A stretch of 64,000 nucleotides of DNA from an uncultured Flavobacteriales bacterium (GTDB lineage Bacteria; Bacteroidota; Bacteroidia; Flavobacteriales; Schleiferiaceae), in NCBI GenBank assembly GCA_913055685.1, contig CAJXKC010000001.1, forward strand, positions 124,001 through 188,000, given 5' to 3'. Below are positions 51,565 through 58,377 of this stretch, in pieces. Under the pieces are notes generated by a model. The model was not told the origin of the DNA and did no database searches. It saw only the letters and a program-made list of their open reading frames with translations. Position numbers and translations under genes: made by a program. The first letter of the stretch is position 1. Every line of letters starts with the position of its first letter.

Positions 51565-52049
51565 GTGCAGCAGTTAGCGTAATTATGGGTAGTAAATCAG
51601 ACCTACCGGTAATGCAAGAAGCAGTCGAGGTCCTGAAAGAATTAGGTGTTTCGGTAGAAGTTAATATAGTTTCTGCCCATCGTACGCCCGAAATTATGTT
51701 TGACTTTGCCAAAACTGCTCATTTAAACGGAACCAAGGTTATTATCGCCGGAGCAGGCGGAGCTGCGCATTTGCCAGGTATGGTGGCTTCTATGAGTCCA
51801 CTACCGGTAATTGGCGTTCCGGTAAAAAGTCGGAATTCTATAGACGGCTGGGATTCGGTATTATCGATCCTTCAGATGCCTGGTGGGGTTCCCGTAGCCA
51901 CTGTTGCCCTAGACGGAGCAAAAAATGCGGGCATTTTAGCTGCCCAGATTATAGGAAGTCAGGATTCTAAGATCTTGGATAATATCATCGCTTATAAAGA
52001 AAACCTGAAAGAAAAGGTCATCGCTTCCCGCGAAGAGTTAGGAAACTAG
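51561..52049 (+). CDS. purE: N5-CAIR mutase
   Basis: A 162-residue class I PurE that converts N5-CAIR to 4-carboxy-AIR. Signatures are VIMGSKSDLPVM, VNIVSAHRTPEIM with the catalytic His, AGAGGAAHLPGMVAS and GWDSVLSILQMPGGVPVAT. A class I (N5-CAIR) rather than class II (CAIR/CO2) enzyme is expected because purK directly precedes it. The stop shares CTAG (52046-52049) with the stop of the convergent LytTR gene. Confidence 0.97.
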   Translation: MSAAVSVIMGSKSDLPVMQEAVEVLKELGVSVEVNIVSAHRTPEIMFDFAKTAHLNGTKVIIAGAGGAAHLPGMVASMSPLPVIGVPVKSRNSIDGWDSVLSILQMPGGVPVATVALDGAKNAGILAAQIIGSQDSKILDNIIAYKENLKEKVIASREELGN

Positions 52050-52804
52050 AGACTTTTTAAAAGGCTCATTAATTGTTCCTTCTTACGATTGGCCACCGGA
52101 ATTCGGCTCCCATCTTCGAGTACCAAATAGCCCCCATCGGTTTGAACGTACTTCTTCAGGAAGTTTACATTCACCAGATGTGATTTATGGATGCGCAAAA
52201 AGGAATACCCCTCTAACATCATGTCAAATTCCTTTAGGGTTTTGGAAGCCAGGAGGTTCTTCTCGTTGTTTAAGTAAAAAGTGGTGTAATTAGAACTACT
52301 TTCAAGGCGAATGATGTCGCTGAGGCGGATTACATGCATCCCATCCGAAGTAGGCACGACAATCTTTTTAGGAGAATCGGAAGCCTGACGAATATTTTCT
52401 ACCAGGACATTAAGGCTGGCCACTTTTTTAGGAATACCTTTTTCACTCTCGAGTCTACGTACCGCCTTCACCAACTCCTCTGGGTCTACCGGTTTAAGCA
52501 GATAATCTAAAGCGGAGAATTTAATCGCTTGAATCGCAAATTCATCGTGGGCGGTAATAAAAATAATGGCCAGGGCCTCTTTTCGCTCCTCGCTCAGACT
52601 CTTCAATAAATCAAAGCCACTCTCTCCCGCCAGGTCGATGTCCAAGAATAACAAATCGACCTCTGGGTTCTCTAAAAGCTTGAGCCCTTCCTCAACCGAG
52701 CCACCTTGCCCCAATAATTCTAATTCAGGACAAAATAAGTCGAGTTTACCAGCCAAAGCCTCGCGCGAATTGGCTTCATCATCAATGATTACCGCTTTTA
52801 ACAT
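52046..52804 (-). CDS. LytTR-family response regulator
   Basis: A 252-residue regulator. The receiver domain (about 1-120) has the acidic pair IIDDE (8-9), phospho-acceptor Asp55 in LLFLDIDLAG, and the Thr/Lys of FITAHDE and LLKPVDPEEL. The LytTR DNA-binding domain (about 145-250) has VPTSDGMHVIRLSDIIRLES and LRIHKSHLVNVNFLKKY. It is the cognate regulator of the propeller histidine kinase two bases upstream on the same strand, in the usual Bacteroidota LytS/LytT arrangement. Targets are unknown. Confidence 0.94.
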   Translation of the reverse strand: MLKAVIIDDEANSREALAGKLDLFCPELELLGQGGSVEEGLKLLENPEVDLLFLDIDLAGESGFDLLKSLSEERKEALAIIFITAHDEFAIQAIKFSALDYLLKPVDPEELVKAVRRLESEKGIPKKVASLNVLVENIRQASDSPKKIVVPTSDGMHVIRLSDIIRLESSSNYTTFYLNNEKNLLASKTLKEFDMMLEGYSFLRIHKSHLVNVNFLKKYVQTDGGYLVLEDGSRIPVANRKKEQLMSLLKSL

Positions 52805-52806
52805 TC

Positions 52807-55608
52807 TTATAATTCTTGTGCCGGTAGGCGTATAATTACTGTGGTACCAGTGGCCTTCCCTGCTTGGTTGTATTTATCTATAACTTCTAAATCGATAAGC
52901 TCATCACTCGATCGGCGTAAAAGGTCAATTCTATCCTTATTGATCTGAGTAGCCATGCTACGGTGGGCTTTCTTACCGGGTAAGTCCTTCGCCTTTACCC
53001 TTCCAATTCCATCATCATCCACAATACAGCAAAGCTGGTTCCCCTCTCTACTGAAACTGATTTTCACAAATCCGGACCCCTCTTTAGGTTTTATCCCATG
53101 TAAAATTGCGTTCTCTACATGAGGCTGGATAAGCATCGGCGGTAAGCCTACATCGTAATCAATCTCTTCATCTACTTCGATTTGATAATCGAATTTATCG
53201 CTAAATCTCAGCTTCTCAAGTTCAAGATAATTCTTCAAAATGGAAACTTCTGTCTCCACCGGATGAATATGCTCCATAGATGATTCAAGGGTGAGCCTCA
53301 TTAATTTTGCGAAATTATTGAGATAGCGAACCGCTTGTTTAGGATCCTTTTTAAAGATAAAGCTGCTGATACTATCCAAGGCATTAAAAATGAAATGGGG
53401 ATTCATTTGCAAGCGAAGAGCCTTACGCTCCATTTCCATTAATTCGTTTTCAAGCTTTAAGCGTTCTGCCGCCCTACGGTAACGGTCGCTTAACCACAAA
53501 TAAGCCAGGCTTCCAAAGCTCAAAACGACAATTGTCCAGAACCACCAAGTACGCCAAAAGGCAGTGCGAATTCTAAAATGGTAAGTCGCTTTTTCCATTT
53601 GCCACTCTTGCCAAGGGTAACGCGCCTGCACTTCGAAATAATAATCCCCTGCTTTTAAATCCGTAAACAGAGCTTCTCTTCGACTACCGGCGTAAGTCCA
53701 GCTAGTAGACTGCCCCTTTAAGCGGTATCGGTATTGCACCCACTGGGGATAAAAAAGGCTGCGTAGGCTGTAATTAAAGCGCAGGTAATTTTGTTGATAG
53801 CCAAGGTCTAAGCTCAGGGGAATATTGCTAAAAGCTTCGCGTCCGGGGGCTAAATCTTGAATGCTGTCTCCTTCTTTTCCAAGGAGATCTATGGCTATGA
53901 TCCCCAATTTAGCAGCAAGCGCTTGCTTTGCCATGGCCTTAATATTCCAAATATAAACCCCTTGATCCCCTGCTGAAATAAGGCTATCGCCCTTTATAAC
54001 AATCCCTTGAGAACTTACTGGTCCGCCAAAGAAATGCAAGTTCACCCGTTCCTTCCCTTCCACCTTCTGTTGCACGTCATTAAAGGCAAGCAATCCTTTA
54101 TTGGTTCCTAACCACAACTGCTCTTTGGAGATTACTAAGTCCCGGATTTCAGCGAATTCTAAGCTTTTTAAATCGTAATGAATCCGGGTACCACTGGTGG
54201 TATTAAGAAGGAAAAGACCCTGATTTAAAGTAGCAAATGCCAAATGCTCCTCATCTATCTTTTCAAAGGCACTTACGCTAATGCTATCCAATGGGAAGTC
54301 TCCAATAAAGTCCACTTTTTCCAATTTTCCCCCGCTTCTTCGCCATATCCCTCCGGTATAGGAAGCGAACCATAAATCGCTTTGACCGGTGCCCCGGATA
54401 CGGAAAATACTAGCTCCTTCTAAACGCTCAGAACTGTATTGCAATTGAGCTTTGGAGGCTCCAGCCTGATAAGTCCATATGCCTTCCGAGCTTCCCACCC
54501 AAAGCGTATCACCATCAGCCTTCAAGGAAAAGATAAACCCCCTAAGCCCTAAATTTCTTTGTCGACCAAGCTCCGGGTTATAAGCCACCAAGCCCCTTTC
54601 GGTTCCTAAGATCAATTCTCCATTAAAGGAGCACATGCTTAAGATAAGGCCTAAGCCCTCTACCTTTTCCTTGCGAAAACCTTGACCTAAAGATTCGAGT
54701 CCTAAGGCAGTAGAGAAATAAAGTCTTCCATTAGCATGCCCGGCACTGAGCAGAGGTAATTGTCTAGGAAAATAGTGTTCCCAAGGGCTATGCAAACGGA
54801 ATAAAGCGTCTTGCCCGATTAAGAGAATGGTTCCCGTCGATGAAATGAAAAAATCCTTGGGTTGCTTCTCGCTGATTGGCAAAGGAAGCTTCATCAAAAA
54901 CTTCCGATCTTTATACAAGCGCAGGCCACTTCGATAAACCGCCGCAGTATACCCTTTCTCCCATTTGCAGAGAATTGGCTCACTTGAATCGGAAGCAATT
55001 TCCGGAAATAATTGGTGGTAAATTATACTATCTGCGAATGTTTCTCTTTGCCATGAGTCGTTCTGCCGCCTTAATCGCTCCAGTTTCTCCTGGATCAAAA
55101 ACAGCCCGATAGAGCTTCTAATAAGTTTTGAATTGGGTGCTATTAAACTACCTAGCTTTATTAGGCTATCCCCTTGAATTGACCACAAAGTCTGATCCGC
55201 TATCACCAGTGGGCCATATTGACTAGCTAAAATTTGCTCGACCGCGGAATTCGCTTGCCAGAGCATTTTAAAACTTAAACCATCGTAATGCCAAATGCTT
55301 TTGCCGTCATGCCATAAAAGTTGCTGTGAAATGGAGTCGAAAATAAGCTCCTCTACTACCGGAAAGTCTTCCAAACCGTAGTTTTCGAAGCTGTAGCCAT
55401 CATAACGTAAGAGTCCGGCTCCTTCTGAGGCTAACCAGGTAAAACCAGCAGGTCCCTCGCAAATGGCATTAATACCCGCGGTAGGTAAACCCTCCTCTAA
55501 TCCAATTTTATCAAAGGTGTACTGTTGGGCCCTAAGTAGGCATCCGCTTATTAAAGCGCTTAGAAATATTAAAAAACGACTTAAGCTCAGTGTGTTAGGT
55601 AGTTTCGT
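52807..55608 (-). CDS. Propeller-containing LytS-type sensor histidine kinase with non-canonical start
   Basis: About 933 residues counted from an ACG at 55608. It has an export signal (LSLSRFLIFLSALISGC then LLRAQQ), a two-component-regulator-type beta propeller (about 28-590, first blade YTFDKIGLEEGLPTAGINAI), a Y_Y_Y-like domain (about 610-690), a TM helix (about 695-715), and a His_kinase domain (LRLQMNPHFIFNALDSISSF, His738) with HATPase (MLIQPHVENAILHGIKP). The frame is closed by TAG at 55618-55620. Between that stop and the signal peptide there is no ATG, GTG or TTG; the first is TTG at 55374, inside the first blade. ACG (55608) or CTG (55590) must start translation, or the start codon is damaged. 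Partner: the LytTR regulator downstream. Confidence 0.85.
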   Translation of the reverse strand, partial: TKLPNTLSLSRFLIFLSALISGCLLRAQQYTFDKIGLEEGLPTAGINAICEGPAGFTWLASEGAGLLRYDGYSFENYGLEDFPVVEELIFDSISQQLLWHDGKSIWHYDGLSFKMLWQANSAVEQILASQYGPLVIADQTLWSIQGDSLIKLGSLIAPNSKLIRSSIGLFLIQEKLERLRRQNDSWQRETFADSIIYHQLFPEIASDSSEPILCKWEKGYTAAVYRSGLRLYKDRKFLMKLPLPISEKQPKDFFISSTGTILLIGQDALFRLHSPWEHYFPRQLPLLSAGHANGRLYFSTALGLESLGQGFRKEKVEGLGLILSMCSFNGELILGTERGLVAYNPELGRQRNLGLRGFIFSLKADGDTLWVGSSEGIWTYQAGASKAQLQYSSERLEGASIFRIRGTGQSDLWFASYTGGIWRRSGGKLEKVDFIGDFPLDSISVSAFEKIDEEHLAFATLNQGLFLLNTTSGTRIHYDLKSLEFAEIRDLVISKEQLWLGTNKGLLAFNDVQQKVEGKERVNLHFFGGPVSSQGIVIKGDSLISAGDQGVYIWNIKAMAKQALAAKLGIIAIDLLGKEGDSIQDLAPGREAFSNIPLSLDLGYQQNYLRFNYSLRSLFYPQWVQYRYRLKGQSTSWTYAGSRREALFTDLKAGDYYFEVQARYPWQEWQMEKATYHFRIRTAFWRTWWFWTIVVLSFGSLAYLWLSDRYRRAAERLKLENELMEMERKALRLQMNPHFIFNALDSISSFIFKKDPKQAVRYLNNFAKLMRLTLESSMEHIHPVETEVSILKNYLELEKLRFSDKFDYQIEVDEEIDYDVGLPPMLIQPHVENAILHGIKPKEGSGFVKISFSREGNQLCCIVDDDGIGRVKAKDLPGKKAHRSMATQINKDRIDLLRRSSDELIDLEVIDKYNQAGKATGTTVIIRLPAQEL

Positions 55609-55633
55609 TAGCTGCTTCTAAAATTAAGCCGAA

Positions 55634-56404
55634 ATGCGGAAATTCATAGGGTTTTTACTATTTCCCTGCCTATTAAATAGTCAGAGTCCCATCCAAGACA
55701 TATCCTTAGCTGGCTTGGGGCGGACTCTCAGCCAGCATACCGCCACTTTAAATAATCCCAGCTCCTTCGCACATCCTCCCGGATTTTTGCTGGGGATTTC
55801 CCACCAGAGGCGCGGAGCTCTAAAGGACCTAGATCTGCATAGCTTTCAAATTAGTTATCGGCGGCAGCAAGCCATTTTTGCCGCATCCTACCAACATTTC
55901 GGAAACGACTATTACCAAGAAAACCATATTTCCCTGGCCTATGGCATGCGATTATCCCCTAAAATTAGATTGGCTGCACGAGGAGAGTTGGTCCATCTAA
56001 TGCAGATCGAAAGACCAAGTACTTGGTTTTATTCGGCATCTATAATCGCTCAATTTCGACTAAACTCAAAGCTCGCTAGCTGTATTAAGCACCAAGCTCA
56101 TTGGAAAGAAGGGGACTTGAAACATGCCCTTAGTATGGAATGGCAAATGCAAGCCAATTCAGGGTTTAATTTACTACTTGGGGGCTTTTTCGATTTTGCA
56201 GAACGACTAGAAATTAAGGGCGCCTGGCAGTACAGAATAATAGAGGGTCTTTTCTTCCAACAAGGCCTCTCCCATAAATTTGAGAATACTTGGCACTTTG
56301 GACTCAATTGGGAATCATCATCAATTGGTCTATTGATAGCCTGCGCCTATGGTGATTTAAGTGCCTGGACGCTCGGCTTGGGCTGCAATTACCGTTTACC
56401 ATGA
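55634..56404 (+). CDS. Unknown outer-membrane barrel-like protein
   Basis: A 256-residue exported protein with a short signal peptide (about 1-17, MRKFIGFLLFPCLLNSQ). The mature part opens DISLAGLGRTLSQHTATLNN, which resembles the start of PorV/FadL-like Bacteroidota barrels, and continues with amphipathic strands ending GLGCNYRLP. The function is not recognised. Its stop overlaps the start of the next gene (ATGA at 56401-56404), so the two are translationally coupled and probably act together. Its start lies only 25 bases from the ACG of the divergent kinase, so both promoters must overlap coding sequence. Confidence 0.7.
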   Translation: MRKFIGFLLFPCLLNSQSPIQDISLAGLGRTLSQHTATLNNPSSFAHPPGFLLGISHQRRGALKDLDLHSFQISYRRQQAIFAASYQHFGNDYYQENHISLAYGMRLSPKIRLAARGELVHLMQIERPSTWFYSASIIAQFRLNSKLASCIKHQAHWKEGDLKHALSMEWQMQANSGFNLLLGGFFDFAERLEIKGAWQYRIIEGLFFQQGLSHKFENTWHFGLNWESSSIGLLIACAYGDLSAWTLGLGCNYRLP

Positions 56405-58377
56405 GACTGCCAAAGATCTTAGGTTTTTGCTGCCTCGTCCTTAATCTCACAGGGCAGAGTCCCAATTTCTTGGAAAACCAAGCTAACCGCTTTATCCCCA
56501 ATGACCCTAGTATTCTTTTGGAAAGAGAGGAAGAGCTGTTCAGGGAAAAAATTTTCGTCAATTTTTGCAGCCTGGAAGACTTGGTAAGCAGTGGTGTTTT
56601 TGATCTATATCAAATAAACAATCTATTGCAATATCGAGAAAGAGGTGGTAAAATTTACAGCTTAGTAGAGTTGGCCCAGATAAAGGGTTTCAGCCCAAGC
56701 TTTTTAAAAGAAATTAGCCCCCTACTCGACTTTAGTACTCAGCCTCCCCGACCTAAACTTTATGCCCCTTGGCTTAAAAAATATAACCAGCATGAAATTT
56801 ACTGGCGCTGGAGTCGGGACCTACAAGAAAGACGGGGCTATAAAGAACAGAAATACTTGGGTGACCCTTGGGAAAGTAGCTTGCGGTATCGTTATCAGAA
56901 TGGTCGTCATTTACGGGCTGGCCTCCAATTGCAAAAGGACCCAGGAGAAGCCTGGACTGGTGAAGGCCGATTTCTAAGTCATGATCATTCCTCCTTTTTT
57001 ATAGAAGGGCAAGCCAATGCTATTATTCGAAAGGTAATTCTAGGAGATTTCAAATACGACTTTGGTCAGGGTTTATGTTTAAGCTCGGGAGGCATGGCGA
57101 TGGTAAATGCGCAAGAAGCCAACCTTAAGCTATACCCCAAAGGTCCGCGTGCTTATGCCGGTGCTGATGAAAACCAGTTTTTTCGAGGCTTGGCAATTAA
57201 CAGCGCCTATAAATCCTGGCAACTAAAGGCATTCTATTCTGTGAAAAATCAAGATGCACGTATTGATAGTCTGGAGGAGCAAGCTATCGTCCTAAACCCT
57301 AATCGGACCGGTTTACATCGCACCGAAGCTGAATCAGCGCTTATTAATCAAGAAAGGCGGCATGCTTGGGCTTTGGACATTTCCTTTGAAAATCAGCTTT
57401 GGCAGATGGGAGTGCTTGCCTTCCAGGAAAAACGTCGCGCTAATGTCCCTAACACCACATTCCAAACAAATGATTTTAAATGGTCTGGCCATTGGAATTA
57501 CCTAAAGAAAGGTTTCAATTTTTACGGAGAAATTGTGGCCAATCAAAAACTGGAATTAAACAGCATTGCCTTGATTAGTGGAATTCAGACCAGCCTTAGC
57601 AGCAAGAGCAGCATTGCCTTTTCTTATTACCTAATGGGGCATCAGGCTCAATCCAATTGGCAGGCTAATCCCAACTTATTGAAAGGCGTTCCTGGTGAAA
57701 AAGGCTTTAAGCTGCAGTTTAATCAGCGTTGGCAAGGAAATCAAATGAGTGTCCTCGGACTGCAGGAGAGTCGCTATTCTTTACCAAGCTATTTGAACGA
57801 AGGCCCAGGTCGGCAATTGGAACTATTTGGCCAGCACCTTATTTCTTATGGCGAAGGTCAATTTCAAATTAGAGCCTTTCATCAAAATAGCTCCTTCTAC
57901 CAAAACCAACCTGACTTAAAAGAATTAAGTAAACAAAAGAAACAGAGGACCCTTATTCGACTTAGTAATAGTGGGGCAATCAGCGCCAAGCTAAAACTTA
58001 AATTGAACCTTAGTTTTTCGCAGAGCTCCGGCTCCAATGGCATTCGCAAGGGTCTATTAATGGGAATGGCCCTTGTCTTTAGAAGTCAAAAGTGGGATCT
58101 AAAAGGAGGTATTGCCTATTCCAACATCAATCACTGGGATAGTCGAATTTACCTTTATGAATACGACTTGCCCTATAGTTTTTCTATTCCGGCCTTTGGC
58201 GGAAAAGCTCTACGTCATCACTTATTGATTAGCTGTAAAGTTTTCCCCTGGATGAAATTATCCATTAAACATGAGGCTTGGCTTTATTTTGATCGTATTA
58301 ACATTAGCAGTGCCTGGCAGCAAATAGAAGGCAATAGACAGAACCGATTAAAAATGGCATTCCTGATTAAATTATAA
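56401..58377 (+). CDS. ComEA-like helix-hairpin-helix protein with a barrel-like C-terminal region
   Basis: A 658-residue protein with a signal peptide (about 1-19, ending NLTGQ). Residues about 50-105 carry a helix-hairpin-helix pair, FVNFCSLEDLVSSGVFDLYQ followed by IYSLVELAQIKGFSPSFLKE, like ComEA/T2SS K DNA-binding modules. The remaining about 530 residues are beta-rich and amphipathic, ending NRLKMAFLIKL, suggesting an outer-membrane barrel. DNA or polymer handling at the outer membrane is a hypothesis. It is coupled to the preceding barrel-like gene by ATGA. Confidence 0.72.
   Translation: MRLPKILGFCCLVLNLTGQSPNFLENQANRFIPNDPSILLEREEELFREKIFVNFCSLEDLVSSGVFDLYQINNLLQYRERGGKIYSLVELAQIKGFSPSFLKEISPLLDFSTQPPRPKLYAPWLKKYNQHEIYWRWSRDLQERRGYKEQKYLGDPWESSLRYRYQNGRHLRAGLQLQKDPGEAWTGEGRFLSHDHSSFFIEGQANAIIRKVILGDFKYDFGQGLCLSSGGMAMVNAQEANLKLYPKGPRAYAGADENQFFRGLAINSAYKSWQLKAFYSVKNQDARIDSLEEQAIVLNPNRTGLHRTEAESALINQERRHAWALDISFENQLWQMGVLAFQEKRRANVPNTTFQTNDFKWSGHWNYLKKGFNFYGEIVANQKLELNSIALISGIQTSLSSKSSIAFSYYLMGHQAQSNWQANPNLLKGVPGEKGFKLQFNQRWQGNQMSVLGLQESRYSLPSYLNEGPGRQLELFGQHLISYGEGQFQIRAFHQNSSFYQNQPDLKELSKQKKQRTLIRLSNSGAISAKLKLKLNLSFSQSSGSNGIRKGLLMGMALVFRSQKWDLKGGIAYSNINHWDSRIYLYEYDLPYSFSIPAFGGKALRHHLLISCKVFPWMKLSIKHEAWLYFDRINISSAWQQIEGNRQNRLKMAFLIKL

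Follow-up and report, generated by a model that had tools for sequence, protein, structure and literature searches.

The window analysed here is a stretch of 64,000 nucleotides from the genome of an uncultured bacterium of the Flavobacteriales, family Schleiferiaceae (the window genome, G000). Its minus strand carries a histidine kinase gene followed by a response regulator gene, and a divergent gene begins on the plus strand. The features of the locus are listed below.

52049-52804, minus strand: LytTR response regulator gene (PF00072, 3.1e-19; PF04397, 3.2e-16), with its stop codon at 52046-52048
52807-55590, minus strand: histidine kinase gene, running from CTG (proposed start) to TAA (stop), defined by the open frame, Pfam matches and motifs
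55525-55590, minus strand: putative signal peptide MSLSRFLIFLSALISGCLLRAQ, read from the sequence, 22 residues with CTG read as Met (compare MSLQRGRLILFISLWTLGLLGQ in the related genome G004)
55588-55590, minus strand: CTG, best candidate near-cognate start, at the position of the relatives' ATG, with A at -3 and -6 and an open predicted leader; the context matrix speaks against it
55606-55608, minus strand: ACG, candidate start of the earlier note, with a matrix score of 4.55; both -3 and -6 are C, and the Q of the signal peptide is 28 residues away
55618-55626, minus strand: stop codons closing the frame upstream, TAA 55626-55624 and TAG 55620-55618, read from the sequence
55619-55626, minus strand: TAATTTTA, a degenerate sequence like the Bacteroidota -7 element, 36 nt upstream of the CTG; a putative promoter, found with a loose pattern that carried no chance control
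55634-56404, plus strand: divergent gene whose beginning resembles a signal peptide, with the ATG (55634) 43 nt from CTG 55590; no Pfam match

Together with its leader the kinase frame spans positions 55620 to 52807 of the minus strand; from CTG 55590 it comprises 927 codons with no internal stop. One protein carries the matches to PF07494 (6.6e-06), PF07495 (Y_Y_Y, 8.1e-11) and PF06580 (His_kinase, 2.9e-23) as well as an H-box and the motifs PHVENAILHG and DDGIG. By these features it is a propeller sensor kinase of a Bacteroidota LytTR two-component pair, predicted to be exported. NCBIfam gave no match above its cut-off for the four proteins tested. The ATG of the regulator lies 2 nt after the kinase stop (52802-52809), a spacing that suggests translational coupling. 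The regulator is 80-87% identical in all six other genomes of the genus (G001 to G006), and homologues of kinase and regulator are adjacent in 12 of the 12 relatives' genomes examined, including G002, where the kinase is spread over two contigs and its 3′ part lies beside the regulator. The set of purK, purE, regulator, kinase and a large divergent gene is kept together in the six other genus genomes (over two contigs in G002) and in another six members of the family. Sequence similarity reveals the smaller divergent gene in five of the six genomes of the genus; G004, the exception, has an open frame in its place.

The N-terminus of the kinase has no ATG, GTG or TTG. On the minus strand the frame reads TAG(55620-55618) AAG CAG CTA ACG(55608) AAA CTA CCT AAC ACA CTG(55590) AGC TTA AGT CGT TTT TTA ATA(55569), and the first canonical codon in it is TTG 55374, none lying between the TAG at 55618-55620 and this TTG, just as the earlier note had described. 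The stretch from TAG to TTG amounts to 81 codons (the 78 counted previously hold if one starts from the ACG) and encodes a putative signal peptide followed by the first repeat of the propeller, the latter matched by PF07494 at residues 40-63 of the protein numbered from the ACG. The view that an N-terminus with a predicted export signal and a first propeller blade precede the TTG is thus borne out, the leader being conserved as well: it is hydrophobic and ends in RAQ, at a position shared among relatives in sequence comparison. Over residues 34-82 of the open frame, identity to G001, G003, G004, G005 and G006 is 67-69% (the split kinase of G002 being excluded), against 43-47% for the remaining protein, and because this segment is conserved above the protein-wide level the natural start should lie upstream of TTG 55374.

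Within the genome the gene is an extreme. Gene calling over 444 kb (the window and 19 stretches of 20 kb, a twentieth falling inside the window) gave 314 genes, and for each the stretch from the upstream stop to the first ATG, GTG or TTG was measured along with its coding log-odds. The kinase stands at the end of this distribution with 81 codons and a log-odds of 8.9, the runner-up by score having 27 codons and 4.3. Stretches of at least 60 codons occur in two of the 314 genes, the kinase counted.

Among 88 family genomes the kinase is found in 22 at E <= 1e-100, and the start can be read in 20 of the 21 orthologues besides the window's own, that of G049 running off a contig end. A canonical start is present in 19 of these 20: an ATG is available in 13, and six (G009, G014, G015, G022, G048 and G050) offer GTG or TTG as the sole canonical start (6/20; L015, L031-L043, L046-L053). 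Weak starts are perhaps a tendency at this kinase locus. In five relatives of the same genus (G001, G002, G003, G004 and G005) the ATG nearest the signal peptide lies 21-22 residues before its Q; these starts are themselves predictions, and four of the five genes also have an in-frame TTG further upstream. The earlier note had called for an alignment of the orthologous start in close relatives, and this alignment puts the ATG of all five at the position of CTG 55590 and finds none near the signal peptide of G006.

The G006 gene is the twentieth readable orthologue, from the same genus on a separate branch, and no canonical start stands beside its signal peptide. Its frame comprises 941 codons without a stop and its leader reads CTA ATT AGA ATT AAG ACT ATC AAA AAA GCG GCT, i.e., ..KL-ATT-R-ATT-KT-ATC-KKAALILILLISVLPCFSQ; the second ATT (L032:7759) gives MKTIKKAALILILLISVLPCFSQ, 23 residues. 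Upstream of this ATT and in frame lie a GTG at 37 codons and an ATG at 46 codons, both overlapping the start region of the divergent gene in antisense, the ATG of that gene being at L032:7810. Codon usage cannot decide on such an extension, since it scores log-odds of -4.3 and -2.7 and the true signal-peptide stretch scores equally poorly (-4.8). If a start is allowed up to 40 codons upstream, G006 passes and is therefore not start-less under this loose rule, the window gene is the sole failure among 12 kinases, and the neighbouring genes pass in 64 of 64 cases in 13 genomes.

A tree of the regulator, purE and purK places G000 with the five ATG species to the exclusion of G006 (support 99/98). 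A clade of G000 and G006 is disfavoured by the AU test (p = 0.012, a value that is not strictly a priori since the pair was chosen after a first FastTree), and a single ancestral loss in such a clade is disfavoured with it. The canonical start would thus have been lost either twice separately or once at the base of the genus with a later regain, at a cost of two changes either way. The second course is allowed by an open fork in the tree between G006 on the one side and G013 and G015 on the other, which admits a loss at the root followed by regain of ATG. Published switches of this kind are very rare: of 61,358 ancestral AUG starts in other prokaryotes, two are reported to have become CUG and one AUU (PMC5622118).

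Several observations bear on the codon that may be used in the window gene. CTG 55590 lies 22 residues before the signal-peptide Q and so matches the relatives' ATG, and ACG 55608 lies 28 residues before it. Adenines at both -3 and -6 are present at CTG 55590 and at ATT 7759 and ATC 7750 of G006; they are absent at ACG 55608 and at the ATG or TTG starts of the six orthologues checked. This is weak evidence because the combination is nearly as common inside genes, being only slightly commoner at starts (17 of 154 ATG starts of the window genome versus 7,897 of 103,038 internal codons). The predicted openness of the leader appears to be the stronger evidence for the choice of codon. At CTG 55590 the ensemble energy is -3.09 kcal/mol, and a profile computed from 55740 to 55410 in 15-base steps is least structured there; a leader as open or more so is found at 10% of the 154 ATG starts, 0.7% of 600 internal sites and 0.7% of 137 GC-matched internal sites. 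A separate shuffle test agrees, with less structure than in the shuffles (z of +1.84 and +2.17). The candidate codons of G006 have leaders of -2.91 (ATT 7765), -3.05 (ATT 7759) and -2.05 kcal/mol (ATC 7750), and those of the five ATG orthologues range from -5.4 to -11.1 kcal/mol. The near-cognate codons of G006 therefore have most of the features of CTG 55590. More than one G006 codon is a candidate, since ATC 7750 also has A at -3 and -6, with a more open leader and a higher score (7.08, against 3.93 for ATT 7759 and 2.71 for ATT 7765) in a context position-weight matrix built from 122 starts.

It is this matrix that speaks for initiation at the ACG, which outscores every other near-cognate codon of the window leader (4.55, where the mean of the genome's starts is 4.36), CTG 55590 scoring 1.19, so that the CTG is no more than the likelier candidate. 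The matrix is weak at the kinase locus, as several impossible codons score high and the ATG codons of G004 and G002 score -0.2 and -7.1. The ACG has C at both -3 and -6, its leader of 28 residues is longer than the 21-22 of the five relatives, and its surroundings are less open than those of the CTG (-5.20 versus -3.09 kcal/mol). ACG is also among the weaker near-cognate starts in E. coli. Codon usage inside the window signal peptide (log-odds -2.6) does not locate the start.

The spacing to the promoter-like element is a further point of comparison. TAnnTTTG, which we take to be the Bacteroidota -7 promoter element and which is putative here, occurs in exact form in the five same-genus relatives at -26, -26, -33, -40 and -40, and in a looser form, TATTTTTC, at -35 from the ATT of G006 (again a loose pattern without a chance control). 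CTG 55590 keeps a spacing to the degenerate motif of the window like that of the relatives, while ACG 55608 is 18 nt from the start of the motif, against 26-40 nt for the relatives' ATG. On this combined evidence, near-cognate initiation at the ACG in place of the CTG is unlikely, and the proposal that the ACG is a mutated ATG is not supported: the ATG of the relatives matches the CTG, and the ACG has neither the adenines nor the promoter spacing.

The divergent gene leaves little room between the two transcription units. As the two starts are 43 nt apart (55588-55634), the divergent promoters must overlap or sit inside each other's gene. The same spacing is 50 nt in G006, 99-113 nt in G001-G005, 44-45 nt in G022 and G019, and 74 nt in G009. 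By eye, the neighbour may have its own -7 element in TAGTTTCG, at 55600-55607 of the plus strand. Neither of the two divergent genes of the conserved pair (55634-58377) has a Pfam match; the second resembles helix-hairpin-helix proteins by eye, and the versions of the first found in the family may resemble PorV/PorQ-like proteins.

The state of the gene can be judged from its frame. Of 8,343 possible single changes in the window gene 457 create a stop, so that an unconstrained frame would stay open with a chance of less than 5% beyond about 0.02 substitutions per site. At four-fold sites of kinase, regulator, purE and purK, the Jukes-Cantor distance (JC) to five relatives is 0.92 or more in 20 of 20 comparisons, two of which are saturated. 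The terminal branch of the kinase relative to that of regulator, purE and purK together has a ratio of 5.0 in G000 and 4.8 in G006, as computed by hand from FastTree trees; these values are in the upper half of the range of the other 11 genomes (2.4-9.1) though within it, and so do not point clearly to relaxed selection. The kinases of both G000 and G006 have an H-box and an N-box, and the short DDGIG pattern was matched in G000 and went unmatched in G006 and five of the other genomes. An intact frame, a conserved leader and an ordinary branch length argue against an old pseudogene.

A recent loss is another matter, since a young pseudogene or silent allele could still have an undecayed frame. 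The gene has no canonical start, a single substitution is enough to produce this state, and the rarity of published changes from AUG to CUG or AUU (2 and 1 of 61,358; PMC5622118) also speaks for this reading. Such a loss could date back no further than about 0.02 substitutions per site and must have happened independently in G006 too, in two genomes that both keep the H-box, the N-box and the regulator, and we regard it as improbable. A sequencing or assembly error at the start codon would need no more than one wrong base. The window genome is assembled in 8 contigs at 99.93% completeness and the surrounding frame is open throughout. A base-calling error is made unlikely by G006, a separate genome (a draft of about 170 contigs, 89% complete) in which a canonical start beside the signal peptide is likewise missing, and an error of this kind is rated as quite improbable. 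Least probable is a start elsewhere, either at TTG 55374, the first canonical start, giving a short unexported protein, or through frameshift or re-initiation from a mini-ORF (MNFRISA*, ATG 55647) that shares the kinase frame. A start at the TTG would cost the protein its signal peptide and first propeller repeat, both conserved in relatives, and it was rejected on this ground. Two in-frame stops separate the mini-ORF from the kinase gene, G000 and G006 have unrelated mini-ORFs that lie in different frames relative to the kinase, and programmed frameshift or mini-ORF re-initiation was rejected as no consistent mini-ORF exists in the two genomes.

On balance we favour, with modest confidence, a functional kinase gene with a near-cognate start, most likely CTG 55590-55588, for which the open leader and the adenines at -3 and -6 would compensate. 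The CUG would be read as Met by the ordinary initiator tRNA to yield the 22-residue signal peptide and then the propeller sensor, and the unstructured leader and A at -3 and -6 would offset the poor start codon, as Bacteroidota do in place of a Shine-Dalgarno sequence. An altered initiator tRNA was considered as a cause and rejected: the usual initiator-type anticodon stem GGGCTCATAACCC is present in seven of seven genus genomes, and ARAGORN calls the G000 copy tRNA-Met. Production of the kinase is probably low and dependent on the fidelity of initiation, possibly under the control of IF3 by analogy with infC and sigR, and the amount of the LytTR regulator is perhaps lowered as well through translational coupling to the kinase. 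The earlier note is thus borne out in part: the N-terminus is intact and has no standard start, and the real start must be a non-standard codon or a recently mutated one, whereas the idea of the ACG as the lost ATG is not supported. Likewise, where expression had been described as tuned down or lost, "tuned" is likelier than "lost" because the frame is otherwise intact and G006 also has no canonical start next to the signal peptide; a lowered level is what we infer.

To our knowledge, few bacterial genes with truly non-canonical starts have been characterised. The infC gene, encoding IF3, starts with AUU and is autoregulated by its own product. In this genus infC begins with ATT CTG GCN AAG, devoid of a canonical start, in six of the six genomes in which IF3 was found (L054:1980-2200, minus strand, and L085-L089; none was found in G001). 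We take the ATT to be the start on the model of the known AUU case, and on this footing the machinery of the genus does initiate at a near-cognate codon in infC. The kinase resembles infC as a bacterial gene with a near-cognate start, a likeness that extends to this genus, but infC is autoregulated and its codon is invariant, whereas the kinase codons differ (CTG in the window, ATT or ATC in G006, ATG in others). A second case is sigR of Streptomyces, with a GTC start that is repressed by IF3, as reported from experiment (PMC5472188). It is likewise a regulatory gene in which a non-canonical start sets the stoichiometry of a signalling pair, but it encodes a sigma factor, and its control by IF3 is experimental where that of the kinase is inferred (PMC5472188). 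In lacI of E. coli, the weak GTG start codon of a regulator is described as tuning expression; GTG is a standard bacterial start, unlike anything available to the kinase (PMC11445065). For the initiation of Bacteroidota, which uses A at -3 and -6 and an open leader in place of Shine-Dalgarno pairing, these adenines are reported to favour starts in Flavobacterium johnsoniae, and CTG 55590 and ATT 7759 of G006 share them together with little predicted structure; that study deals with starts in general, and the terms AUU, non-AUG and infC are absent from its main text (PMC6847099). No published case of a histidine kinase with a non-canonical start codon was found in the open-licence PMC literature, and among the matches listed there, judged by title and the opening of the abstract, none is a comparable case from Bacteroidetes.

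The locus has a practical side, as gene callers tend to misplace non-canonical starts; an automatic annotation of the kinase would probably take TTG 55374 as the start and so miss the export signal. The orthologues of the same genus that start with ATG are natural comparisons for the near-cognate kinase starts. Should near-cognate starts prove recurrent at a sensor-kinase locus, it would become possible to test whether translation controls two-component stoichiometry in a phylum that does without Shine-Dalgarno sequences. Two lineages have no canonical start next to the signal peptide (a candidate CUG in one, AUU or AUC in the other), each with an open predicted leader and A at -3 and -6, and it may be proposed from this, tentatively and with some doubt, that the fidelity of initiation exerted by IF3, and not the strength of the promoter, sets the amount of the sensor. 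If true, the stoichiometry of a two-component system would here be switched at the step of translation, in a phylum lacking Shine-Dalgarno initiation.
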